From positions 1-15,075 of the forward strand of contig JABSQL010000198.1 in NCBI GenBank assembly GCA_013215865.1: DNA of 15,075 nucleotides, in the 5' to 3' direction. Of the stretch, positions 1 through 10,776 are shown in pieces. A program made the translations under genes and the position numbers. The notes beneath the pieces were generated by a model. That model was not told the DNA's origin. It was given only the letters and a program-made list of their open reading frames with translations, and made no database searches. Source of the DNA: Candidatus Margulisiibacteriota bacterium (GTDB lineage: Bacteria > Margulisbacteria > Marinamargulisbacteria > DT-59). How positions within the stretch are numbered: the first letter of the stretch is position 1; every line of letters begins with the position of its first letter.

Positions 1-81
1 AATAGTTGGAACCAGTTTTATGAGTATGTGATGGATGCGTTTGAGGTGCTTGAGGGTAAGCGAGGCCCTGAGTTTGTGTAG
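1..81 (+). CDS. 3' end of a truncated coding region, function unknown
   Basis: From base 1 a frame is open for 26 codons and stops at TAG (79-81). The visible tail reads NSWNQFYEYVMDAFEVLEGK followed by RGPEFV, a plausible amphipathic C-terminus with ordinary composition. The start lies outside the window, so family and function cannot be judged. It is followed by a ~70 bp intergenic repeat that recurs downstream of the gene ending at 2543, which hints that both genes sit in comparable cassette-like units. It could also be a chance open frame, because only 78 coding bases are seen. Confidence 0.45.
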   Translation, partial: NSWNQFYEYVMDAFEVLEGKRGPEFV

Positions 82-129
82 AAATGGACAAGGGTTTGGG
101 TGTTTTTCAGGTTGCTTCAATTTTGGTTT

Positions 130-199
130 GAGTTTAAATACCACCACAGAGAAATTACACCAGTAGTGTATGTGGGGTTTTGACGGTTGTCGGAATATA
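130..199. repeat. Intergenic repeat, copy A
   Basis: About 70 bp aligning with 2670-2740 at roughly 80% identity by eye, with a 3-base loop insertion and a small compensating deletion. The core shared stretch is TTACACCAGTA and the right part is TTTTGAYGGTTGTCG. Both copies keep the stem TACAC/GTGTA (here 156-160 and 166-170, loop CAGTA). It lies between a gene end (81) and the convergent end of the Xre gene (266). Function unknown; candidates are a structured 3' UTR, a recombination site or a small dispersed repeat. Confidence 0.6.
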
Positions 200-265
200 A
201 GTATACTGAAACTGCCATATTTCCCATAAACAAGGAAATGTAGAGGAAAGAATGTACTTGAAAAA

Positions 266-451
266 TTATAGTGAATCCAAAGAAATTTTCAAAACCTTTG
301 CGATTTTCTTAACTAACTCAAAAGACGGCACGTTTTTATCTTTTTCAATCTTATAAATAGTCTGTGTTGTTACATCTAACTTTCTCGCCAGATTTTCTTG
401 CGTTAACCCTGCTTTTGTGCGGGCCTTTCTAATTTTTGTTCCCAGAGACAT
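266..451 (-). CDS. Small Xre/Cro-type helix-turn-helix regulator
   Basis: A 61-residue protein that is almost entirely one HTH_3 domain: the recognition module runs from GLTQENLARKLDVTTQTIYK through IEKDKNVPSFELVKKIAKVL. The family binds operator DNA as a dimer, commonly as a self-regulating repressor in prophages, islands and toxin-antitoxin modules. The start ATG (449-451) is preceded by AAGGG only one base away, which is unusually close, but the protein length fits minimal family members. It is divergent from the gene at 547, and the 95 bp between them hold the promoter at 496-524, so it probably represses that promoter (inference). No partner domain is fused to it. Confidence 0.85.
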   Translation of the reverse strand: MSLGTKIRKARTKAGLTQENLARKLDVTTQTIYKIEKDKNVPSFELVKKIAKVLKISLDSL

Positions 452-495
452 ACCCTTATAGTATTAAATGATTAGATAATAATAAATAGTTTATA

Positions 496-524
496 TAGAC
501 TAGATAGATATTATTAGTTATAAT
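496..524 (+). promoter_or_regulatory. Predicted sigma-70-type promoter of the small gene at 547
   Basis: TAGACT (496-501), a 17 bp spacer and a perfect TATAAT (519-524). Initiation about 7 bp downstream would place the transcript start near 531, just before the GAGGG ribosome binding site (535-539). This makes a very short leader and strongly limits where translation can begin. It lies between the Xre gene and the small gene, the usual position for a controlled divergent promoter. Confidence 0.6.
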
Positions 525-546
525 TGATTATTACGAGGGTTTAACG

Positions 547-798
547 ATTAAAAAAGATAAAGTAATACGTCCAGAAGTTAAGTCTAAATTATTCAAGAAT
601 ACTCAAGAAGCTGTTTCTTTTGGGGAAACGGCTTCTTTGGATGACATGTCCAGGCTTATAAATCGCCTACACAAAATTTTTAAGTCTAAAGTTTTGGAGT
701 TGAGCTTTGAGCTTCAGTTTTATAACGAGGCTTATCATGCCTTTGTTAAAGATGAGTGGTATGAGGAGTATTATAAAGACACCGCAAAATCTCTCTGA
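547..798 (+). CDS. Small hypothetical protein with apparent ATT start codon
   Basis: An open frame with natural-looking composition ends at TGA (796-798) and encodes 83 residues if it starts at ATT 547. It begins with a lysine-rich stretch (KKDKVIRPEVKSKLFKN) and has an aromatic, acidic C-terminal part (FELQFYNEAYHAFVKDEWYE). No ATG, GTG or TTG lies in frame between the upstream stop (505-507) and TTG 637. GAGGG (535-539) sits 7 bases before ATT 547 (4 before ACG 544), directly downstream of a good promoter. Later in-frame starts are TTG 637 and ATG 646 (51 residues), which would leave a strong hairpin (607-635) in the leader. I recognise no family. The divergent Xre gene suggests a phage- or toxin-antitoxin-like pair, but this is inference. 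Confidence 0.55.
   Translation: MKKDKVIRPEVKSKLFKNTQEAVSFGETASLDDMSRLINRLHKIFKSKVLELSFELQFYNEAYHAFVKDEWYEEYYKDTAKSL
607..635 (+). promoter_or_regulatory. Strong hairpin inside the 5' part of the small gene
   Basis: GAAGCTGTTTC (607-617) pairs with GAAACGGCTTC (625-635) over 11 bp with one G-U pair and a 7-base loop, followed by TTT. It resembles an attenuator or weak intrinsic terminator, and it precedes the alternative starts TTG 637 and ATG 646. Confidence 0.4.
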
Positions 799-829
799 AA
801 AATCAACTACCGAGGATTTCTAGGTAGTT
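797..829 (-). terminator. Likely intrinsic terminator for the minus-strand gene ending at 940
   Basis: AACTACC (805-811) pairs with GGTAGTT (823-829), extended inward by AG/CT after one mismatch. Read on the minus strand the stem is followed by GATTTTTC, a T-run. On the plus strand it is followed by TAAAAATG, which is not a T-run, so its polarity suits the minus-strand gene about 110 bp upstream. Weak stem, so moderate confidence. Confidence 0.45.
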
Positions 830-939
830 TAAAAATGATGATATGTTGGTGGGTGGGTGGAATAACGTTAGAACTTGTTTTGCGATGGGTTAGATACCCC
901 CGTCTTTAACTCTTGGATAGCCTTTTCTAGTTAAATAAG

Positions 940-1389
940 CTAAAAATTCAATGCCAACACCAGAAAATTGCTCCATTCCTTAAAACCAATAGATTTTAAT
1001 GCTGGAAGAATTTTTGTATAGATTTCAAAAGTTTCTTTTGCTTCTTCTTTAGTGACTGTGGTTCTGGCGTTAAGTTTGTCTAGTGCATCAAGTTGAGTGT
1101 TATAGATTAGCCTGTATATTTTTTCAAAAAGTAATTCAAGTTGAGTTTCTTCTCGTTCGTTAGTTTGGGTTTTAGAATAGGGGGCAATTTTGTTAAGGTC
1201 TTCTTCGATTGCTTTTTTTTGAGTTTCCAAAATGGACCCTTTGATTTTTAGTTGATAGTAATGGTTTGAAGATTGTTGCTCATCTATTTCAGATGTAACT
1301 TCGTGTATTTTATTTTCAACTTGCGGGGTTTCTTGTTGGGTTTTGAATTTGAACCAATCTTTGAGTTCACCAGAGCTAATATTCCCCAA
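940..1389 (-). CDS. Coiled-coil hypothetical protein, TTG start or N-terminal nonsense
   Basis: A 149-residue soluble, charged, mostly helical protein. Residues ~20-75 are rich in E, K and Q (ENKIHEVTSEIDEQQ, ETQKKAIEEDLNKIAP) and look like a coiled coil; the C-terminal half (LLFEKIYRLIYNTQLDALDK) is helical and more hydrophobic. No signal peptide or membrane segment, and I recognise no family. The only conventional start in the open frame is TTG at 1389, with no visible ribosome binding site. Immediately before it is an in-frame TAA, and five codons further up an in-frame ATG (1406-1404), giving MQFLR-stop. The gene therefore either uses TTG, reinitiates after a five-codon leader, or carries a nonsense mutation at codon 6. 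A TTGACA-type promoter lies upstream. Confidence 0.5.
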   Translation of the reverse strand: MGNISSGELKDWFKFKTQQETPQVENKIHEVTSEIDEQQSSNHYYQLKIKGSILETQKKAIEEDLNKIAPYSKTQTNEREETQLELLFEKIYRLIYNTQLDALDKLNARTTVTKEEAKETFEIYTKILPALKSIGFKEWSNFLVLALNF

Positions 1390-1402
1390 TTAACGTAGAA
1401 AT

Positions 1403-1453
1403 TGCATTTTTTAAGATAAAAATGCATATGGTAACAGTTAAAAATACTGTCAA
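1403..1453 (-). promoter_or_regulatory. Promoter with overlapping 9-bp dyad for the minus-strand coiled-coil gene
   Basis: On the minus strand a perfect TTGACA (1453-1448) is followed after 17 bp by CATATG (1430-1425), a weak -10. A perfect inverted repeat, TGCATTTTT (1403-1411) and AAAAATGCA (1418-1426) separated by 6 bp, starts inside the -10 and covers the expected transcript start. That position suits an operator, or a hairpin at the very 5' end of the transcript. Confidence 0.45.
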
Positions 1454-1679
1454 GGGCCACTTATAAGAGATAAGGATGGCTTCAGTCATTAGATTAGTAT
1501 TCTATCAGATGTGACCATTTTTGGAATGTTGTTGCATCCATAATCGATGTCTTGGAGGACTAACAAGAGAGGTACTAAATATTTTGTAAACTTGAATTTC
1601 ATTAACTTCTCTCGATTAGCCGACGATTGTCCAGTAATATAACAAATTTTTCAAAGATGGGACTACTGGAGAAATCACA

Positions 1680-2543
1680 ATGGGTGGGCGTGTTAGAATT
1701 AAGTTGAGCAATATGAATAAAATTGAAATAGAACTTTGTAAGATATTTCTTAAGCATCCACTAAAAAAATGTTGTCCTTATGATGAAATAATCATATCCG
1801 GGCCCGGCAGTGAATTGAATGATTGTTTTTATGTGAAGTTTTACCAAGAGGAAGATGAAAAGTTTCCGTCATTATTTATCACTGAAATCAATGGTGATAA
1901 AATTATTGGTAAAAGATGGGACGATATTGCTAACAAATATTCTACGGATGTTAGTATTTCTCTTAAAGATATAAAGCCAGGTTTTTTAGAAGTTACCAAT
2001 TACCATAAAGGGAATATTACTGTTTTTTCAGGGCTTTGGGACTTTGTTATAAATCGGATAACAAGAGCACCCTACGTTTATGCTTTTTTACACACTAAGA
2101 ATTTTCAGATTCAGCAATTTACTTTTAATCAGAAATTATTGGATGTGAATGACCCTATTATGTTACTCGAGGTAGTAAGAAAATATTACCTGGATAAGGG
2201 TGAGCCCATTGGCGCAGTTGATTTGCTTGTAAACTTGTATGAATTAAAGGCCGTTGGACATCCAGATTTTGATGCGACATTAAAAAAAATTGATCGATTA
2301 CTTAATCTTTATACTGAATCTAATGATTTACTGAAAAGAGAATCTAAATATCAAATTACTGGGCAAGGAATAAAGCTGCTTGAACAACATCAGTACCTGG
2401 CAGAAACACGTATTGAGAATCTAAAGCTCCAGAAACAAATAAGGAATTTAACTTGTTGGATATTATTTTTCACTTTTATTATGGTTGGACTCGGGATCAT
2501 TGAAAATTGGCAGTTTATAGAATGTGTAATAACATCCTTTTGA
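1680..2543 (+). CDS. Hypothetical protein with winged-helix-like region and C-terminal membrane segment
   Basis: A 287-residue protein I cannot assign. Residues ~1-160 form a globular alpha/beta region of unknown type. Residues ~165-235 contain GEPIGAVDLLVNLYELKAVG followed by a helix and KYQITGQGIKLLEQ, a pattern like the recognition helix and wing of winged-helix proteins. Residues ~237-255 (AETRIENLKLQKQIRNL) could be a short coiled coil, followed by one hydrophobic helix at ~257-277 (WILFFTFIMVGLGII). This predicts a cytosolic domain anchored to the membrane by its C-terminus. ATG 1680 is chosen because GGAG (1668-1671) sits 8 bases before it. It is followed by repeat copy B and a hairpin terminator, so it is probably monocistronic. 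Confidence 0.75.
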   Translation: MGGRVRIKLSNMNKIEIELCKIFLKHPLKKCCPYDEIIISGPGSELNDCFYVKFYQEEDEKFPSLFITEINGDKIIGKRWDDIANKYSTDVSISLKDIKPGFLEVTNYHKGNITVFSGLWDFVINRITRAPYVYAFLHTKNFQIQQFTFNQKLLDVNDPIMLLEVVRKYYLDKGEPIGAVDLLVNLYELKAVGHPDFDATLKKIDRLLNLYTESNDLLKRESKYQITGQGIKLLEQHQYLAETRIENLKLQKQIRNLTCWILFFTFIMVGLGIIENWQFIECVITSF

Positions 2544-2669
2544 AATTGGCCATCCCATTCCTAGCAATCTAGTTAACGCAACCAAGGAAAAATATTAGGT
2601 TCTAAGTTTAGTTTTTATGCAATTTATTCTGGTTGTTTTGTGATTTTCAAATTTATTTGAGTTTGTTTT

Positions 2670-2740
2670 AAGTTTGACTACCACTACAGGGAATTTACAC
2701 CAGTAAGAGTGTATAGGATTTTGATGGTTGTCGAAATTTA
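2670..2740. repeat. Intergenic repeat, copy B
   Basis: Second copy of the ~70 bp repeat at 130-199, same orientation. The stem TACAC (2696-2700) and GTGTA (2709-2713) is kept, while the loop grows from 5 to 8 bases (CAGTAAGA). Differences are scattered, so this is an old duplication or a dispersed family and not a recent copy. It lies 127 bp downstream of a gene stop; copy A lies 49 bp downstream of one. Confidence 0.6.
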
Positions 2741-2823
2741 GAATTAGGACACAAAAGGTATTTCACGTTAAAAGAGAAAGCCTTGGTATCCAATATACTT
2801 AGTTAGAATTTGGCATTGTGTGA

Positions 2824-2844
2824 AAAAATGCCTGGGGCATTTTT
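2824..2844 (+). terminator. Intrinsic terminator upstream of the AlbA_2 gene
   Basis: AAAAATGCC (2824-2832) and GGCATTTTT (2836-2844) form a perfect 9-bp stem with a 3-base TGG loop, ending in a T-run. It is symmetric and could act on both strands. It may terminate the gene ending at 2543, but it lies 49 bp before the next start, so it could also work as an attenuator for that gene. Confidence 0.6.
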
Positions 2845-2848
2845 AATA

Positions 2849-2881
2849 ATGGTTTAATTGTTGAGTAGGAGATGGTTTAAT
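2849..2881. repeat. Pair of 10-bp direct repeats before the AlbA_2 gene
   Basis: ATGGTTTAAT occurs at 2849-2858 and again at 2872-2881, 23 bp apart, ending 11 bp before the start codon. Position suggests a protein-binding site or a translational element; no known regulator is recognised. Confidence 0.4.
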
Positions 2882-2892
2882 AATGGGCAATT

Positions 2893-4782
2893 ATGAGATC
2901 AGCCAATGAATTGATTAAGCATTTGAATAGCGTAGACGAATGTACCGATGTTGAGGCCAAGAGATGTACAAAAGTTGATAAATCTATTTTAGAGACTATT
3001 TGCTCCTTTTCAAATGAACCAGGTTTAGGTGGAGGGTCCATTCTGCTTGGTGTAGTTAGAAGTAAAGAAAATGGTGATTATGAAAGTAATGGTATTAGTA
3101 ACCCTGATCAGATTCAGTCAGACCTTGCTTCAAGATGTGCTACAGAATTTAATGTCGCCATAAGACCAAGAATAAAAACTGAAGTAATTGGTGGAAATAC
3201 GGTTCTCAACGTTTCAGTTTCTGAGTTATCAAAATCGCAAAAACCGCTTTACTTTAAGAGTGTAGGACTCCCAAAGGGAGCTTTTAGGAGAATAGGTCCT
3301 ACTGATCATCAATGTACAGATGACGATATGTTTGTTTTTTACGAACATAATGACACTTTCGATAAAAGTGTAGTTTATCAGAGCACCATGAGGGATATAG
3401 ATTTAGAGGCTGTAGAAAATTACAGAAGAATTCGAGAAAGAGTGAATTCTTCTGCTGAAGAGTTAACATATACGGATGAGGATTTGTTGCACTCACTTGG
3501 GTGTGTTGAGAATGTTGAAGGGGAGATAAAGTTAACAGTAGCAGGCGTTCTTTTGTTTGGAAGTAAAATGGCACAACGACGATTATTTCCAATGATGCGT
3601 GTTGATTATATAAGGATACCTGGCAATGAATGGGTTTCAAATCCTGATAAAAGGTTTACAACTATAGATATGAGAGGTCCATTACTCAGTTTGGTACAAA
3701 GATTGCTTGATTCTGTAGTCGATGACTTGCCAAAAGGTTTTTATCTTCCTGAAGGTGAAATACAAGCTGACAGAAAAGGATTGCCAGGAAGGGTTCTTCG
3801 TGAGGCTATCGTTAATGCAATAATGCATAGGTCTTACAAAGAAAATCAGCCTATTCAAATATTACGTTACAGCAATCGTATTGAAATTAAGAATCCGGGT
3901 TTTTCATTAAAACCTGAAGAGCATTTAGGGACGCCTGGTTCGAAGACACGAAATCCTTTAATTGCGGCTGTTTTTCACGAAACCAATGTTGCCGAAACAA
4001 AAGGTAGTGGAATTAGGGTTATGAGAAAATTAATGGAACAATCTGGATTAGGACCTCCAACATTTGAATCCGATCATGGTCAAAATTTATTTACCGCTAG
4101 ATTACTGTTGCACCACTTCTTGGGAGAGGAAGACATAAAGTGGCTTGCTTCTTTCGAAAAATATAAATTAAACGAAAGCCAAAAAATATCACTGATTTTT
4201 GTTCGGGAAGTAGGTGCTATAGATAATTCTGTCTATAGACAAATTAATCGATTAGATACATTGAAGGCAAGCTCTGAACTTCGGTTGCTAAAAAAGTGTG
4301 AACTTCTTATTAAAAAAGGGAAAGGGAGATCAACGTATTATGTTCCTGGAAATGAGTTAACTAGGAATATGGACTTAAAAGGTCTAAATCAAGATAGTGC
4401 ACCAGTTACTTCTCATAGTGCACCAGTTACTTCTCATAGTGCACCAGTTACTTCTCATAGTGCACCAGTTCCTTCTCATAGTGCACCAGTTCCTACAGGG
4501 GATAGTGCACCAGTAGATTATTTGATCAATCAACTTCCTCAAGAATTAAAGGATCAAATTAGAGAACTTGGCTCAAAATGTAACGATCCAGAAAAAATAA
4601 AGAAGGTTATAGTAAATTTGTGCCATTATAGAGAATTTAGGCTCAAAGAGCTTGCTATTATATTAGCTAGACAGCCAAAATATATCTTAAGAACGTATCT
4701 AAAACCTTTACTGGAAAGTAAGAAAATTAAATATACCCAGCCTGATATGCCAAATCATCCAAATCAAGCTTATACGGTTTAG
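2893..4782 (+). CDS. AlbA_2 (Schlafen-type) domain protein with GHKL ATPase domain and heptad repeats
   Basis: 629 residues. Residues ~10-140 form an AlbA_2/divergent-AAA_4 domain (VEAKRCTKVDKSILETICSF ... GGGSILLGV). Residues ~300-410 match the RecG-like C-terminal ATP-binding region of the GHKL fold (HATPase_c_4): LREAIVNAIMHRSY is the N-box region, with NP-rich and ETKGSGIRVM motifs following. Residues ~415-490 look like a winged helix. Residues 502-541 are a tandem repeat (SAPVTSH), and a second helical DNA-binding-like domain (LKELAIILARQPKYILRTYL) closes the protein. Family members (COG2865) are annotated as transcriptional regulators; AlbA_2/Schlafen domains also occur in nucleases and anti-phage proteins. 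The ATG at 2893 lacks a good ribosome binding site, unlike the overlapping 8-codon frame at 2883. Role here unproven; defence or island regulation are both possible. Confidence 0.8.
   Translation: MRSANELIKHLNSVDECTDVEAKRCTKVDKSILETICSFSNEPGLGGGSILLGVVRSKENGDYESNGISNPDQIQSDLASRCATEFNVAIRPRIKTEVIGGNTVLNVSVSELSKSQKPLYFKSVGLPKGAFRRIGPTDHQCTDDDMFVFYEHNDTFDKSVVYQSTMRDIDLEAVENYRRIRERVNSSAEELTYTDEDLLHSLGCVENVEGEIKLTVAGVLLFGSKMAQRRLFPMMRVDYIRIPGNEWVSNPDKRFTTIDMRGPLLSLVQRLLDSVVDDLPKGFYLPEGEIQADRKGLPGRVLREAIVNAIMHRSYKENQPIQILRYSNRIEIKNPGFSLKPEEHLGTPGSKTRNPLIAAVFHETNVAETKGSGIRVMRKLMEQSGLGPPTFESDHGQNLFTARLLLHHFLGEEDIKWLASFEKYKLNESQKISLIFVREVGAIDNSVYRQINRLDTLKASSELRLLKKCELLIKKGKGRSTYYVPGNELTRNMDLKGLNQDSAPVTSHSAPVTSHSAPVTSHSAPVPSHSAPVPTGDSAPVDYLINQLPQELKDQIRELGSKCNDPEKIKKVIVNLCHYREFRLKELAIILARQPKYILRTYLKPLLESKKIKYTQPDMPNHPNQAYTV
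4396..4515 (+). repeat. 21-bp in-frame tandem repeat coding for SAPVTSH
   Basis: Three identical 21-bp units (4396-4458), a fourth with ACT changed to CCT (4459-4479), a fifth ending differently (SAPVPTGD, 4480-4503) and a final SAPV (4504-4515). The unit length is a multiple of three, so copy number can change without a frameshift. It separates the ATPase/winged-helix part from the C-terminal helical domain and probably forms a flexible or ligand-binding linker. Confidence 0.9.
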
Positions 4783-4837
4783 GAAACTTTTAATGGCTGT
4801 AGGCGAAAGAAAACCTCGTTTTTACAGACAACCTTAA

Positions 4838-4890
4838 CGGACATTTATCGGACATTTTTTCGACATTCCTCTTGAATTAAACGGACATTT
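4838..4890. promoter_or_regulatory. Array of CGGACATT boxes with 11-bp phasing
   Basis: CGGACATTT at 4838-4846, 4849-4857 and 4882-4890, and CGACATT at 4861-4867. Aligned on ACATT, the boxes begin at 4841, 4852, 4863 and 4885: spacings of 11, 11 and 22 bp, all on one face of the helix. The last lies within the spacer of the promoter proposed for the recombinase operon. The arrangement suits cooperative protein binding: an operator, or binding sites of a recombinase or transposase (read on the minus strand as TGTCCG repeats). Confidence 0.65.
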
Positions 4891-4898
4891 CGTATAAA
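4872..4898 (+). promoter_or_regulatory. Possible promoter of the recombinase operon
   Basis: TTGAAT (4872-4877) and TATAAA (4893-4898), with a 15 bp spacer, shorter than optimal. A CGGACATTT box lies between the hexamers, so bound protein would block or bend the promoter. Initiation near 4905 gives a leader of about 75 bases containing the 4926-4993 structure. Confidence 0.35.
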
Positions 4899-4925
4899 AA
4901 TAGTAGTGTAAGTCAAAATTAAACT

Positions 4926-4993
4926 GCTGAGCCAAAGGAGTTTCCAAGCGACCTTAGCGCAGGCCATAAAAGGAAATGGCCGTGGAACTCAGC
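4926..4993 (+). promoter_or_regulatory. Structured leader with ribosome binding site in a hairpin loop
   Basis: GGCCAT (4962-4967) pairs with ATGGCC (4976-4981), leaving the loop AAAAGGAA that contains the Shine-Dalgarno sequence; the possible ATG start forms part of the stem. An outer stem, GCTGAG (4926-4931) with CTCAGC (4988-4993), encloses it, and GAGTTTCC (4939-4946) could compete for the same partner. This suggests translational control of the operon's first gene. No known riboswitch class is recognised. Confidence 0.45.
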
Positions 4994-5113
4994 AAGTGCA
5001 AAGAAATTTTAAACGAGTTAGATTTAACCGATCAAGACATCATCGAAATTCGGGATACACTAACGGGGATAGTTGAAAATATTGTAGATGCCATTTTTGA
5101 TGAGGACTCTTAA
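4982..5113 (+). CDS. Small acidic protein, first gene of the recombinase operon
   Basis: 43 residues from GTG 4982, or 45 from ATG 4976 in the same frame. GTG is preferred because AGGA (4971-4974) stands 7 bases before it, while ATG 4976 is one base from the same site. The sequence (ELSKCKEILNELDLTDQDII followed by a helix ending NIVDAIFDED) predicts an acidic helical protein, possibly one that binds DNA-binding partners, but I recognise no family. Its stop TAA (5111-5113) directly abuts the next ATG (5114), showing tight translational coupling with the following gene and hence with the recombinase. Likely a regulator or accessory factor of the element (inference). Confidence 0.65.
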   Translation: MELSKCKEILNELDLTDQDIIEIRDTLTGIVENIVDAIFDEDS

Positions 5114-5611
5114 ATGGGTAATGTAACGCATAAGCAGTTAACCGCAAATCGAAGAAATGCTCGTCAGGGTGGGATTAAAACGGTTGAAGGTAAACAAAAA
5201 ATCCGATTTAATGCTCGTAAACATGGTATTCTCGCCAATATCCTGGCAAACTACGAAAATGAGTTTCACCAAAACTATGTTGATCACCTATTTGATGAGT
5301 TTAAACCTCAAAACACATTAGAAGAACTGCTGGTCGAAAGAATCGCAATCCATTATTTAAAGTTGTTTAGACTATCGAAGGCAGAAGGAGAGCACATTCG
5401 ATTCAGCCTAAAAGAAAAAGTACTCGACTTTTCAGATTCGATGTTCGATGATGAAGACAAAATGAGCTTATCAAATAACCAATTTGAAACCTTACTTAAC
5501 TTATATCAGCGCTATGAAACCACCACTGAGAATCGCTTATATCGGGCCTTAAAAGAACTAAAGGAATTGCGTTCCCCTGAGCAAATGGGTTTGTTTGGCA
5601 ATAATGCGTAA
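5114..5611 (+). CDS. Hypothetical protein with ANRRNA...EGK...RFNA.KHG N-terminal motif
   Basis: 165 residues. The N-terminus, with LTANRRNARQGG, VEGKQKIRFNARKHGIL, is a recognisable signature of a widespread but uncharacterised family often found in mobile or repeated genomic settings. The middle (NTLEELLVERIAIHYLKLFR) and C-terminus (YQRYETTTENRLYRALKELK) are helical, also typical of that family. The basic N-terminus suggests nucleic-acid binding (inference). GAGGA (5102-5106) is 7 bases before the ATG. It abuts the upstream small gene and overlaps the recombinase start by 8 bases, so the three are one operon. Function unknown; an accessory factor of the recombinase is a reasonable guess. 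Confidence 0.8.
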   Translation: MGNVTHKQLTANRRNARQGGIKTVEGKQKIRFNARKHGILANILANYENEFHQNYVDHLFDEFKPQNTLEELLVERIAIHYLKLFRLSKAEGEHIRFSLKEKVLDFSDSMFDDEDKMSLSNNQFETLLNLYQRYETTTENRLYRALKELKELRSPEQMGLFGNNA

Positions 5612-7154
5612 AAAAGCGGTCATTTATTGTCGGGTATCTTCTGAAAAGCAAGTCCGTGGAGGTAACGGATTAAAAAGGCAAGAAAAGCGATGCTGTGATT
5701 ATGCCATATTCAATAAATGGAATGTTGTAGCCGTATTTCATGATGAAGGTATATCAGGTGGACTTGTTGATCGTCCGGGCATCCAGAAACTCCTCGATTT
5801 TCTGGATAGGTCAGAAGAAAATATCATAGTGCTGGTTGATGATATTAACAGATGGGCAAGAGATGTTTCTGCTCATTTTGCACTTAAACGAGCTATAGAA
5901 ACTGCTGGTGGGGAACTTCATAGCACTACGATGAAATTTGAAAACAGCCCTGAAGGCCACTTTATTGAAACGATCATGGCTGCGGGTGCTGAACTTGAGA
6001 GAAACAAAAATAAACGACAGGTTAAGCATCGTATGAAGTCACGGTTGGAATTGGGCTATTGGGTGTTTGACAGCCCGCCCGGATATGTTTACAAAAAACA
6101 CCCCATTCATGGAAAAATACTGGTCAAGGATGAGCCCGCTGCAAGCATTTTGAAAGAAGCCTTAGAAGGCTTTTCAAATAATCGATTTATCAGCCAGACA
6201 GATGTTAAAGGTTTCTTAGATTCAAAAGGTTTTCGGGCACGTTCTCGTTCAAAAGCAGTTCATTTGGAAACGGTTAAACGGTTTCTTGTACAACCACTGT
6301 ATAGCGGAGTTATCATCTATGAAAAATGGGGGATTCCCGTACGATCTGGAAAACACGAGCCGATTATTTCTCAAGAAACCTACGATAAAATTCAAGATAA
6401 ATTAAAGGGGAAAGTCAAAGCATTTCGTAAGGACTTAAATGAAGACTTCCCACTGAGAGGTTTTATTTTATGCACTGGATGTGATTGTGCCATGACGGCC
6501 AGTTGGTCGAGAAGCCGAAATGGAGAAAAGCACCCGTATTACCGATGCAAAACCAAGGCCTGTAAGTTTGGTAACAAAAGCGTTCAGCGAAAACGATTAG
6601 AAACTGCTTTCTCAAAACTACTTCAGCAAGTAACGCCTCAAAAACAGATTTTGGATTTGTTGGGTGTTATCGCGCTTGATGTGTATAATCAAAAATTTGA
6701 AGCACATCGAACCAGCCTTAGTGTTAAAGAAAATGAAGTAAACAATATTCAAAATCAAATTAAAAAGCTGGTCGAGAAGTTAACAAAAACTGACAGCGAA
6801 TCTGTGGCCAAAGCGATTGAATCTAGCATTGAAGAAAAAGAACACGATAAACAAAAGTTGCTCAAAGAGCTGGCTCAAAAGAAAAACCATGACTACAATT
6901 TTGAAACCGCTTTGGAAAAAGTCACTAATTTTATAAGCCAACCTCACAATATGTGGGCCAATGGTAATTTAGAGCAAAAACAGAAGGTGCAAAAGCTGGT
7001 TTTTCTTGAGCCTTTGACCTATGGCAAAGAAACAGGGTTTGGAACCGCTAAAAAGGCGCTTCCTTTCGCCTATTTCAATGAAAATGTGAAAACCAAATCA
7101 CATCTGGTGGAGGTGACCGGAGTCGAACCGGTGTCCGAAAAAGCTTTGAATTAA
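5604..7154 (+). CDS. Large serine recombinase (site-specific integrase)
   Basis: 516 residues from ATG 5604; a TTG at 5595 would add three. The resolvase domain spans ~1-145 with the catalytic motif YCRVSS (Ser12, with Arg10) and the DDINRWARD motif supplying further active-site arginines. The Recombinase domain follows (~150-280, GYWVFDSPPGYVY to YDKIQDKLKG), then a zinc ribbon (CTGCDC ... YRCKTKACKFG, ~290-325) and a coiled coil (~370-430), the architecture of phage-type serine integrases. Such enzymes join attP and attB unidirectionally unless helped by a directionality factor. The last 16 codons (LVEVTGVEPVSEKALN) are antisense to the tmRNA 3' end, so the native C-terminus has been replaced by host sequence on integration. 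It overlaps the preceding gene by 8 bases. Confidence 0.93.
   Translation: MRKKAVIYCRVSSEKQVRGGNGLKRQEKRCCDYAIFNKWNVVAVFHDEGISGGLVDRPGIQKLLDFLDRSEENIIVLVDDINRWARDVSAHFALKRAIETAGGELHSTTMKFENSPEGHFIETIMAAGAELERNKNKRQVKHRMKSRLELGYWVFDSPPGYVYKKHPIHGKILVKDEPAASILKEALEGFSNNRFISQTDVKGFLDSKGFRARSRSKAVHLETVKRFLVQPLYSGVIIYEKWGIPVRSGKHEPIISQETYDKIQDKLKGKVKAFRKDLNEDFPLRGFILCTGCDCAMTASWSRSRNGEKHPYYRCKTKACKFGNKSVQRKRLETAFSKLLQQVTPQKQILDLLGVIALDVYNQKFEAHRTSLSVKENEVNNIQNQIKKLVEKLTKTDSESVAKAIESSIEEKEHDKQKLLKELAQKKNHDYNFETALEKVTNFISQPHNMWANGNLEQKQKVQKLVFLEPLTYGKETGFGTAKKALPFAYFNENVKTKSHLVEVTGVEPVSEKALN
7084..7103 (-). terminator. Terminator of ssrA, located inside the recombinase gene
   Basis: On the minus strand, directly after the encoded CCA, ATGTGA (7103-7098) pairs with TCACAT (7089-7084) across an 8-base loop and is followed by TTTTC. 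The position is right for ending the tmRNA precursor. The same bases encode the recombinase near its C-terminus. Confidence 0.5.
7105..7154. other. Probable attachment site: ssrA 3' end fused to the recombinase gene
   Basis: The recombinase frame continues through 50 bp of the T-arm and acceptor region of ssrA before its stop. The 3' end of ssrA is a classic integration target. The crossover should lie near the 3' edge of the tmRNA gene. I see no second copy of this sequence in 1-7000, so the other junction is outside the window or shares only a very short core, as is normal for serine integrases. Confidence 0.55.
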
Positions 7155-7336
7155 CCCACTACGAGCGTAGTTCTTGTTTAGGTTTTAACTTCTCATACGC
7201 CCAAGAACAGGCGAGATAAGAAGCGAGACCGGGTATAGTCTCATCTCATAGCCCCCAATCAAAACCACAAGACCAGTCGGTAAATGATCGTCACGTCACC
7301 TCCACCGACATGAGGTGGGAGACGCTCATAGCTTAA

Positions 7337-7390
7337 TTAAGCTACGAGTAATTCAGCGTTTCCGCTGTGTACAAATGTTTTGTCATTTGT
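7337..7390 (-). other. tmRNA proteolysis-tag reading frame
   Basis: In frame with the hairpin TAA (7339-7337) the tag reads TNDKTFVHSGNAELLVA, 17 residues after the alanine carried by tmRNA. Alignment of TAAAC-ACA-AAT-GAC with the common tmRNA pattern TA..C-GCA-AAC-GAC places the resume codon at ACA (7390-7388). The end LLVA resembles the usual hydrophobic ALAA degron. Two hairpins lie inside: ACAAATG/CATTTGT (7390-7384, 7377-7371) and CAGCG-GAAA-CGCTG (7367-7354). Confidence 0.75.
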
Positions 7391-7507
7391 GTTTAGGTCT
7401 GCCTTTTGACGAGGCCTGGCAGCTCCTCGGCTCGCGTTTTAACCCTAAGGTCTTTCCCGTCGAATCCAAATTCACCCCCAAAGAACAGGGCCAGAAGGCC
7501 AAACACT

Positions 7508-7536
7508 ATCATAACGATTATCATGCGTTAAATCAA
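7508..7536 (-). promoter_or_regulatory. Promoter of ssrA
   Basis: On the minus strand TTGATT (7536-7531), a 17 bp spacer and TATGAT (7513-7508). Initiation near 7500 leaves about 20 bases of 5' leader before the mature end at 7479, to be removed by RNase P as for other tmRNAs. It lies just downstream of the glycosyltransferase stop. Confidence 0.7.
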
Positions 7537-7565
7537 TTATTTTGCGTTAACATATAAAAATATTA

Positions 7566-8252
7566 TCACCATCTAAGATTTTTTAAACAAGTTAATATAA
7601 TAATAAAACCTGCCTTAATGGTTCCAATGATTGTGCCAGAAATTTTAGATTTTCCGATGCGTGGTCGGTAAGAAGTCGGAATTTCAAGGATGCGTAGCTC
7701 GTGATGAATCGCTTTAAGCTGCATTTCAATGTTCCACCCGTAAGATGGATCTGATAGGTTTAACGTTTCAAGAGACCTCATTCTGATCGCTCTGAAAGGA
7801 CCCATATCCTTAAAGTCAACACGATATAGTAGAGATACCAATTTACAAACAAACAAATTACCACATTTTTGAATAAAAGGCATGGCATTTATTTTCATAA
7901 GATTCGGGCAGCGATAGCTCATCACAAGGTCATATTCACCAGAAAAAATAGGTCCAGTTAATAGGGGTAATTGAGTGGGATCATCTGAAAAATCTGCATC
8001 CAGAACAACCACTATTTCTATATCTGGTTTTATAACCCGAACACCCGCTTGTACAGCATTGCCGTATCCTTTTCTGTGCTCACGGATAACGTCAACGTGA
8101 AAAGTTCTGGCTATTGCAGATGTATTGTCTTCAGATCCATTATCGACAACGATGATTTGCCTTACATGATCCTTAGGGATAGATTTTAAGACCTCACCTA
8201 TGGCTAATGCTTCATTAAGAGCAGGGATGATGACCGCAACAGGAGGGGACAC
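7566..8252 (-). CDS. Family 2 glycosyltransferase, polyprenyl-phosphate sugar synthase-like
   Basis: 228 residues from GTG 8252. GT-A fold: VAVIIPALNEALAIGEVL (strand, nucleotide-binding loop), QIIVVDNGSEDNTSAIA, VLDADFSDDPTQL with the DAD metal-binding motif (DxD-type), and SYGWNIEMQLKA typical of DPM1/DPG-synthase-like enzymes. Such enzymes transfer a sugar from a nucleotide donor to polyprenyl phosphate at the inner membrane. One hydrophobic helix near the C-terminus (GFIIILTCL) may bind the membrane. The frame is open further upstream, but GTG is chosen because it overlaps the preceding stop as TAGTG and the family usually begins just before PPVAVIIPALNE. It is the last gene of a coupled three-gene operon, 66 bp before the ssrA transcript. 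Confidence 0.87.
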   Translation of the reverse strand: MSPPVAVIIPALNEALAIGEVLKSIPKDHVRQIIVVDNGSEDNTSAIARTFHVDVIREHRKGYGNAVQAGVRVIKPDIEIVVVLDADFSDDPTQLPLLTGPIFSGEYDLVMSYRCPNLMKINAMPFIQKCGNLFVCKLVSLLYRVDFKDMGPFRAIRMRSLETLNLSDPSYGWNIEMQLKAIHHELRILEIPTSYRPRIGKSKISGTIIGTIKAGFIIILTCLKNLRW

Positions 8253-9470: not shown

Positions 9471-10776
9471 GAACAGGTCAAAGTTATATTTGCATATTTT
9501 AGGTTTTTTTTCGTGTGTGGGTTATATCGGATTGTTATTGTTTTCTAGGAAAGTACTTCTATGCCAAAACCCACTTACTTTTATCGGAATATTCGCTGTG
9601 ATTTGGGCAGGTTTTATTTTATGCTTACGTTTACTTAATCACAATACACCGTTAAAAATTATTTTATTTTGGGGGATCTTATTTAGACTGATTGGATTAG
9701 CATCTTACCCTATTTTTGAAGATGATGTATATCGATACTTATGGGATGGGTATCAATATTTTTCATTTGGTAATCCATACCTGTATGCGCCGAGTGATTT
9801 TTTTGGTCAGTTGTCGCTGCCTGCGTATATCCATCAGATATTAGATCAAGTCAATTATCCTTTTTTTAAGACTATTTATTCACCAATACTTGAGTATTTC
9901 TTTCTTGCTATGCATATTTTAAGGCCAGGGAGTATTTTTTTTCTGAAATTCTGCTTGATTATTTTTGATCTTCTTATTTTTTCCGTATATTTTTTACGCT
10001 GCTCCAGAAAGATACAGTTTATTTATCTTTGGCTGCCAATATTAGTTTTTGAAGTGGCATTTAATGGTCATGCAGAAATAGTGGGGATATTCTTCCTGTC
10101 GGTTGCTATCATCGTTCGAAACGGAGGCAATATTAAATTAAGCACAATATTACTATCCTGTGCCTGTGGTGCAAAACCGATAGCCTTTATATTTGTTCCT
10201 TTTATTTTAAGATTAAGTTGGAAAAATTGGCTTCTATTTTTTGTGACGCTGGCTGTTATTTATTTTCCCTTGCTTTATTCTGTACAATATAGTGAATGGC
10301 ATACGCTGATTACTTTTTTAAGGCATTGGGAGTATCACTCTACCGGCTATTTGGTTTTATCTCTTATCTTTCCTGGCTATATCAGCAGATGTGTGGGTGC
10401 TATTTTATTTTTAGCCTTTTTTGGACAATTACTTTACAGGCATCTTAAGAATAAAGAAAATGTATTTAAAAATGGCCATATATTGTTATTTGTTTTGCTT
10501 TTTTTATCGCCAGTAGCAAATCCATGGTATTTTTTGTGGGTCATTCCTTTTCTTCCCTATTGTAAAAATTTAGGAGAGGGTCTGATACTGCTCATGTTAC
10601 CCTTAACTTATATACAAACAGATAATTTTTTATTATCTATACCGGGCCAGTATTTGCATCCTTTATGGGTAAATATAGCCGGGATAGCCTTTTTTTTGAT
10701 GACATTTTTAGTGTATTATTTCCCAAAACTAATTTCAGTATGCTTTAATAAAAAATATGATACTACTTCGACGTAA
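9469..10776 (+). CDS. Multi-pass GT-C glycosyltransferase (GT87/mannosyltransferase-like)
   Basis: 435 residues with about ten to twelve hydrophobic membrane segments. After two or three N-terminal helices comes the first external loop with FEDDVYRYLWDGYQYFSFGN and PYLYAP, the acidic motif typical of GT-C enzymes that use polyprenyl-phosphate sugars (the DVYRYLWDG pattern of bacterial MptB/GT87-like proteins). Further motifs are GHAEIVGIF, CGAKPIAFIF and SPVANPWYFLW. It should transfer a sugar to a lipid-linked or envelope acceptor on the outer face of the inner membrane. No ribosome binding site precedes ATG 9469, so the true start may differ. Divergent from the GT2 operon, a plausible supplier of its donor, and overlapping the next gene by 20 bases. 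Confidence 0.8.
   Translation: MNRSKLYLHILGFFSCVGYIGLLLFSRKVLLCQNPLTFIGIFAVIWAGFILCLRLLNHNTPLKIILFWGILFRLIGLASYPIFEDDVYRYLWDGYQYFSFGNPYLYAPSDFFGQLSLPAYIHQILDQVNYPFFKTIYSPILEYFFLAMHILRPGSIFFLKFCLIIFDLLIFSVYFLRCSRKIQFIYLWLPILVFEVAFNGHAEIVGIFFLSVAIIVRNGGNIKLSTILLSCACGAKPIAFIFVPFILRLSWKNWLLFFVTLAVIYFPLLYSVQYSEWHTLITFLRHWEYHSTGYLVLSLIFPGYISRCVGAILFLAFFGQLLYRHLKNKENVFKNGHILLFVLLFLSPVANPWYFLWVIPFLPYCKNLGEGLILLMLPLTYIQTDNFLLSIPGQYLHPLWVNIAGIAFFLMTFLVYYFPKLISVCFNKKYDTTST

Follow-up and report, generated by a model that had tools for sequence, protein, structure and literature searches.

A tRNA- and tmRNA-directed family of serine integrases whose C-terminal tail appears to be exchanged on integration

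The first 7.1 kb or so of the 15,075-nucleotide stretch of Candidatus Margulisiibacteriota DNA analysed here (the window) probably represent an element that integrated at the tmRNA gene ssrA by means of its own serine integrase, and in doing so exchanged the native C-terminal tail of that enzyme for one encoded by antisense tRNA or tmRNA sequence. We put the probability of this reading at roughly 75%, and the exchange of tails appears well supported by the sequence comparisons described below. The proposed integrated element (positions 1–7111) was delimited by inference from both of its ends.

The recombinase gene lies on the plus strand (5604–7154) and encodes a large serine recombinase of 516 amino acids with Pfam Resolvase, Recombinase and Zn_ribbon_recom domains. 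Its integration target, ssrA, lies on the minus strand (7105–7479), as called by ARAGORN and by a match to the full Rfam model RF00023 (181 bits). The earlier note held that ssrA supplies the last 16 codons and the stop of the recombinase, and the coordinates of the open reading frame, ARAGORN and Rfam bear this out. The frame runs past the CCA end of ssrA at 7105, giving LVEVTGVEPVSEKALN followed by TAA (7152–7154), and all of the last 16 codons and the stop are antisense ssrA save for the first base (7104). We assigned the protein to the large serine integrases on the basis of its Resolvase, Recombinase and zinc-ribbon domains, its coiled coil, its catalytic serine and its active-site arginine and glutamine. 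Residues R10, S12, Q26, D80, R83 and R86 are invariant in the alignment of the recombinase family (A1), and R10, S12 and Q26 are active-site positions of phiC31 integrase (PMC12884075). An AlphaFold2 model of the window recombinase contains long paired helices (residues 347–395 and 399–427) in a coiled coil, and Foldseek matched this model best to SPbeta integrase structures (9dxf, 9dxd and 9dxh), with only 18% identity to the top match.

A serine recombinase at ssrA had been thought unusual, a view that the family around this protein does not uphold. Of 508 relatives found in genomes, the 80 best were examined, and at 69 of these 80 loci an antisense tRNA or tmRNA gene covers the end of the recombinase gene; the same holds for 4 of 16 viral loci (the 16 best of 38). 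Among 1,321 other long open reading frames from the same 80 loci (stop-to-stop, at least 200 codons), only 3 had such a gene over their last 90 nt, which places the overlap at the 69 genome loci well above chance. The overlapped genes (n = 73) comprised 20 Arg, 19 Ala, 13 Ser, 7 tmRNA, 5 Tyr, 4 Leu, 2 Met, 2 Thr and 1 Val. The codon phase of the CCA end was identical in 70 of these 73; in the other three (L036, L050 and L096) the called gene begins at GTGGA, without TGG. At these three near junctions, the tRNA or tmRNA has no encoded CCA and element bases precede GTGGA. Several of the 11 genome loci without a called overlap keep a T-arm fragment (for example, L031, L034, L037, L072, L077, L081 and L101). 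The relatives come from Peribacteria, Paceibacterota, Gracilibacteria, Rickettsiales and many other Alphaproteobacteria, Nitrospirales and further groups. A protein search returned 1,251 homologues of the window recombinase, and we analysed the best 120 (query included), which, the query apart, share 40–53% identity with it. When their C-terminal ends were classed, partly by eye, 88 of the 120 were assigned by a motif to the V[DE]xxGxEPxS type that is read from an antisense tRNA T-arm, 18 carried another common tail (V[DE]-x5-[WS]N and a helix-like stretch), which we call the native tail, and 14 were left unclassed. A search from the Roseovarius member L049 added 119 new proteins, 89 of them tRNA-type by a loose motif and 30 other. 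Plasmid and phage collections yielded 137 and 519 matching records, respectively, all below 60% identity and at about 21–30% among the 40 matches listed from each.

Several further features of these loci were observed. In L048, another serine recombinase reading frame (16697–18700) ends over a tmRNA (18530–18937), and the family member at 10001 no longer adjoins a tRNA. Only the 3′ part of a tRNA, broken near the anticodon, follows the recombinase at the end of L210 and in L034, L037, L072, L101 and L106, a pattern that the later insertion of another element might leave. Stretches from the phylum of the window (L172–L191) hold 19 reading frames of distant serine recombinases, of which 4 overlap an antisense tRNA or tmRNA, a further 10 have one at a distance of up to 400 nt and 5 do neither, counts that are biased because the stretches were picked partly for a nearby tRNA or tmRNA. 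Directly 5′ of the recombinase, small open reading frames of one family occur in 61 of 80 genome loci and account for 70 of the 79 upstream frames found among 97 loci examined; this family is a candidate partner or recombination directionality factor (RDF), the helper that large serine integrases use for excision but not for integration. A different protein occupies the place in the window and in L022: in the window it is a 165-residue protein (5114–5611, plus strand) that overlaps the recombinase start, with a homologue at the same position in L022.

The earlier note expected the excised circle to encode a recombinase with a different tail, and such a tail was found, displaced, at window positions 1–81 and at 8 far ends distributed over 7 of the 80 genome loci. 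To locate these ends we built a profile from 17 native tails (16 proteins and that of L117) and searched it over all frames of all loci. Plus-strand matches upstream of the recombinase appeared in L022, L027 (two), L048, L050, L096 and, weakly, L045; L117 matched by construction because its tail is among the sources of the profile. A pattern search for the native arm gave 18 matches, of which we took the 7 with an in-frame core, the rest lying inside the recombinase gene or elsewhere. This search added L042 and also found L045, which we retained (E = 0.15) for that reason. A minus-strand profile match in L107 (E = 0.059) was taken as chance, and others above 0.1 were set aside. The flank examined was 10 kb per locus and many elements may extend further; within it, no native far end was found in most alphaproteobacterial loci. 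We had also considered the short 'MVL stop' ends of alphaproteobacterial matches as native tails, and dropped them when L091 showed that such an end can be tRNA-derived. On the phage contig L117, which carries terminase and portal genes, a native-type tail is joined to the recombinase; no terminal repeat was found in this contig, its first 43 bases occurring once.

The two kinds of end differ in a regular way. In the native arm, GTGGA and a TGGAA-type motif are 16 nt apart at all nine sites (the 8 far ends and L117). At all 73 tRNA and tmRNA junctions, the spacing between the first T of TGG and the T-loop is 18 nt, which puts the loop 11 nt past the core; for the three whose called gene lacks TGG, this count begins two bases further back. 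The putative zinc-domain motif is therefore 5 bp nearer to the centre in the attB-derived than in the attP-derived arm (11 versus 16 nt). The model set out in the relevant passages of Rutherford et al. 2013 (PMC3783163) places this motif at positions 16–24 in attP and 11–19 in attB, and the shift that we see in sequence fits it; taking the GA of GTGGA as the central dinucleotide would put both motifs on the published positions. The shift concerns one half-site; a matching motif was not made out in the left arm. The core common to near and far ends in the relatives is about 5–7 bp. We read the conservation of WN in the native tail as a DNA constraint because the putative zinc-domain motif also spells WN.

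We propose that the enzyme uses the 3′ ends of tRNA and tmRNA genes as attB, with a GTGGA-type core at the acceptor end and the universal T-loop (TCGAACC in antisense) serving as the putative zinc-domain motif. attP would lie inside the last codons of the integrase gene itself, at an invariant valine codon, and it is because of this position that integration would swap the tail. Recombination would sever the native tail (V[DE]-x5-WN and the helix-like stretch), which would remain behind at the element's far end, and the integrated gene would gain a new tail from the antisense tRNA or tmRNA. In the window, the proposed crossover place is the GTGGA at 7107–7111, the core common to near and far ends of relatives, although the exact point of crossover is inferred; the putative motif of the attB-derived arm is TCGAACC at 7123–7129, the antisense ssrA T-loop, and that of the attP-derived arm is TGGAACC at 7–13, all on the plus strand. 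The circle would then make a native-tailed enzyme. The native helix may help integration, and its loss may help to hold the element in place or shift the direction of the reaction; an integrated element, if able to excise, must use the tRNA-tailed enzyme or have help.

Beyond the attachment half-site, native tails still resemble one another. The 22 tails of at least 18 residues, from 27, scored 0.68 (BLOSUM62, per residue pair), whereas 2,000 shuffles averaged −0.88 (s.d. 0.04) and never reached 0.68. For the ten tails with DNA, the coding frame scored 0.41 versus −0.37 and −0.61 in the other frames, with 3, 12 and 18 stops in the three frames (coding frame first). By these sequence measures, the native tail in the part of the family around the window protein is conserved past the half-site and in the coding frame only. 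AlphaFold2 modelled a helix at residues 498–532 of the native-tailed protein P0060 (block pLDDT 47 at the joint and 62–76 beyond), which we count as weak support for a helical tail because the input alignment contained native tails.

What the exchange does to the enzyme can be read in two ways. It may be a neutral by-product, with attP sitting at the 3′ end of the gene by chance and the enzyme working alike with either tail, and we consider this quite plausible, at somewhat short of even odds. It would agree with the varied length and sequence of the tRNA-encoded tails, with a tmRNA tail that is modelled as disordered (pLDDT below 50 for residues 498–516 of the window protein) and with the alphaproteobacterial branch, where comparison of tails and junctions did not resolve a conserved native helix; the frame-specific conservation of the native tail beyond the half-site argues against it. 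Alternatively, the helix could be a state switch written by recombination, in which the enzyme of the circle would be set for integration, the host-encoded peptide would lock integration or turn the enzyme to excision, and direction would be stored in the coding sequence besides any RDF. We regard this second idea as tentative and rather unlikely. The probability left over from these two readings covers uncertainty about the anatomy and weaker effects.

Native-tailed and tRNA-tailed recombinases can be closely related. The native-tailed P0019 shares 91% identity over 480 residues with the tRNA-tailed P0010; identity is 84% between P0080 and P0084 and 78% between P0018 and P0005. On a FastTree tree of sequences trimmed of their tails, in which 19 rows bear the native label (P0076 added), this label requires 10 changes, at least 8 of which are forced by starred branches. 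Shuffled labels required 17.9 changes on average and none of 500 shuffles was as low as 10; the label is clustered, with 11 native rows in one group of 13. Such clustering is what one would see if native-tailed proteins were a separate lineage with a fixed tail rather than the unintegrated state of the same elements. The forced changes, the pair at 91% identity and the displaced native tails upstream of tRNA-tailed recombinases all oppose that view, and we judge it improbable. In sequence terms the distribution agrees with a state that can flip, one branch being observed mostly in its native form; that branch may be a partly fixed lineage.

We now return to the proposed element in the window, whose far end is defined by the displaced native tail at 1–81 (plus strand), NSWNQFYEYVMDAFEVLEGKRGPEFV followed by a stop. 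The native-tail profile matches bases 1–78 (E = 0.011 across all loci), and by eye the closest tail is that of P0019 (WNQFYDYILD). Since GTGGA and the motif are 16 nt apart in relatives, the contig would start about 10 nt inside the attachment site, and the element would therefore make up nearly all of 1–7111, with a circle of about 7.12 kb; the far core of the window lies outside the contig and its spacing is taken from the relatives. Between its ends, the element carries a small Cro/CI-type helix-turn-helix regulator (266–451, minus; PF01381), a 149-residue open reading frame without a family match in Pfam or PHROG (940–1389, minus), a 287-residue frame without a Pfam match (1680–2543, plus; phrog_7611, unknown function) and a Schlafen AlbA_2/HATPase_c_4 protein (2893–4782, plus; PF04326 and PF13749). 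Pfam revealed no second recombinase among the frames of the element. A 66-bp repeat at 77% identity links two intergenic places within it (100–165 and 2640–2705), and 21-bp tandem repeats at 4394–4498, inside the AlbA-domain gene, encode SAPVTSH-type repeats. A first direct-repeat search of the window found no long att repeat. No contig with the second junction was found, the first 90 and the first 22 bases of the window each being single-copy in the genome. Positions 1–81 might instead be part of something else, in which case they would not define the size of the element or its own native tail. The contig does begin inside the site, without a core, and the profile E value is modest; against this, strand, order, motif and distance range are all as in the far ends of relatives, and we consider a foreign origin of this end unlikely.

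Judging from sequence relationships among family members, an insertion at ssrA seems to have produced the overlap with the recombinase gene. The proposal of an insertion finds backing in the overlap, in the displaced tails and in empty sites in relatives of two other members, although none was found for the host of the window itself, whose nearest relatives in the comparison share only its class. The comparison with insert-free relatives that the earlier note suggested gave one site at a tRNA and, approximately, one at ssrA. Filomicrobium sp. ih4 has a tRNA-Ala that matches the occupied one of F. insigne and has no adjoining recombinase; right-hand genes match and the left side is rearranged, and with the left flank rearranged the far end of the F. 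insigne element was not found. At ssrA, L050 carries an element of about 5.4 kb whose far end holds a native tail. G210, which is related to the L050 host, has gene X, the tmRNA gene and smpB in the L050 order without a recombinase (gene X at 70% identity; tmRNA at 94% over 335 nt with an identical tag). This empty site is approximate because about 1.6 kb between gene X and ssrA is mostly not alignable with L050. For L042 no empty site was found: in 18 relatives, read with about 1.5 kb of flank, the left-flank gene does not adjoin tRNA-Tyr, and in the closest relative the contig ends there. The notion that recombinase and ssrA are an ancestral core arrangement without insertion, to which one might bring the distant serine recombinases of the phylum that also adjoin tRNA or tmRNA genes (in stretches partly chosen for that), is very improbable, given that the best score outside the genome of the window was 177 bits versus 758 (143 genomes), that the family occupies a wide range of tRNA genes across many phyla and that the site is free of a recombinase in relatives of two other members.

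The earlier note called a large serine recombinase at ssrA unusual and suggested that integrated and circular forms might differ in activity; a serine recombinase overlapping ssrA, and a like thought about the circle, are already in print for Dehalococcoides (McMurdie et al. 2011, PMC3146451). The passages of that paper on ssrA islands describe DsiB, a serine recombinase of about 540 residues encoded on the strand opposite to ssrA and overlapping it; the authors found the stop unclear and suggested that full function might require the circular form. The same passages report 20-bp ssrA direct repeats, place the insertion in the T-loop and describe a six-gene module that includes a second small serine recombinase; they identify no native tail for DsiB. 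By description, the window recombinase resembles these islands in that its 3′ end overlaps ssrA. Unlike them, its element lacks the second small recombinase of the six-gene module, and no 20-bp repeat of the ssrA end occurs within window positions 1–7600 (among the 20 largest of 30 repeat families), the far core being outside the contig. The window integrase shares its domains, catalytic motif and fold with the A118/LI, SPbeta, Bxb1 and phiC31 integrases, and its family probably also the 5-bp offset of the zinc-domain motif in attP relative to attB (as described in PMC3783163); it differs in that attB would be a tRNA or tmRNA T-loop and attP would lie within the coding end of the integrase. 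Archaeal suicidal tyrosine integrases, as outlined in PMC8371274, likewise have the site inside the integrase gene, so that integration alters the gene. Those genes are split in two, whereas here the enzyme is a serine recombinase, its catalytic domains (Pfam) remain in one gene and only the C-terminal tail would be exchanged. At the int promoter of ICEKp1, according to the account in PMC13023037, the junction also changes integrase output between integrated and circular states, but it acts on transcription and not on the protein end. Among the titles and abstract openings listed by searches of open-licence literature, there was no other report of a tRNA-directed serine integrase family or of a native tail, and the word tRNA occurs 0 times in the main text of Durrant et al. 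2022 (PMC10083194). New here are the breadth of the family, the native tail and the T-loop geometry.

If the tail matters, these elements would have an additional, sequence-readable control of integration direction. Should it prove irrelevant, the near-universal T-loop is still apparently used as attB in many bacterial groups, and a T-loop-directed family would be a large set of tRNA- and tmRNA-directed serine integrases with predictable targets. The displaced tail also offers an answer to the question raised by DsiB in 2011, namely where the missing 3′ end of the gene is kept.
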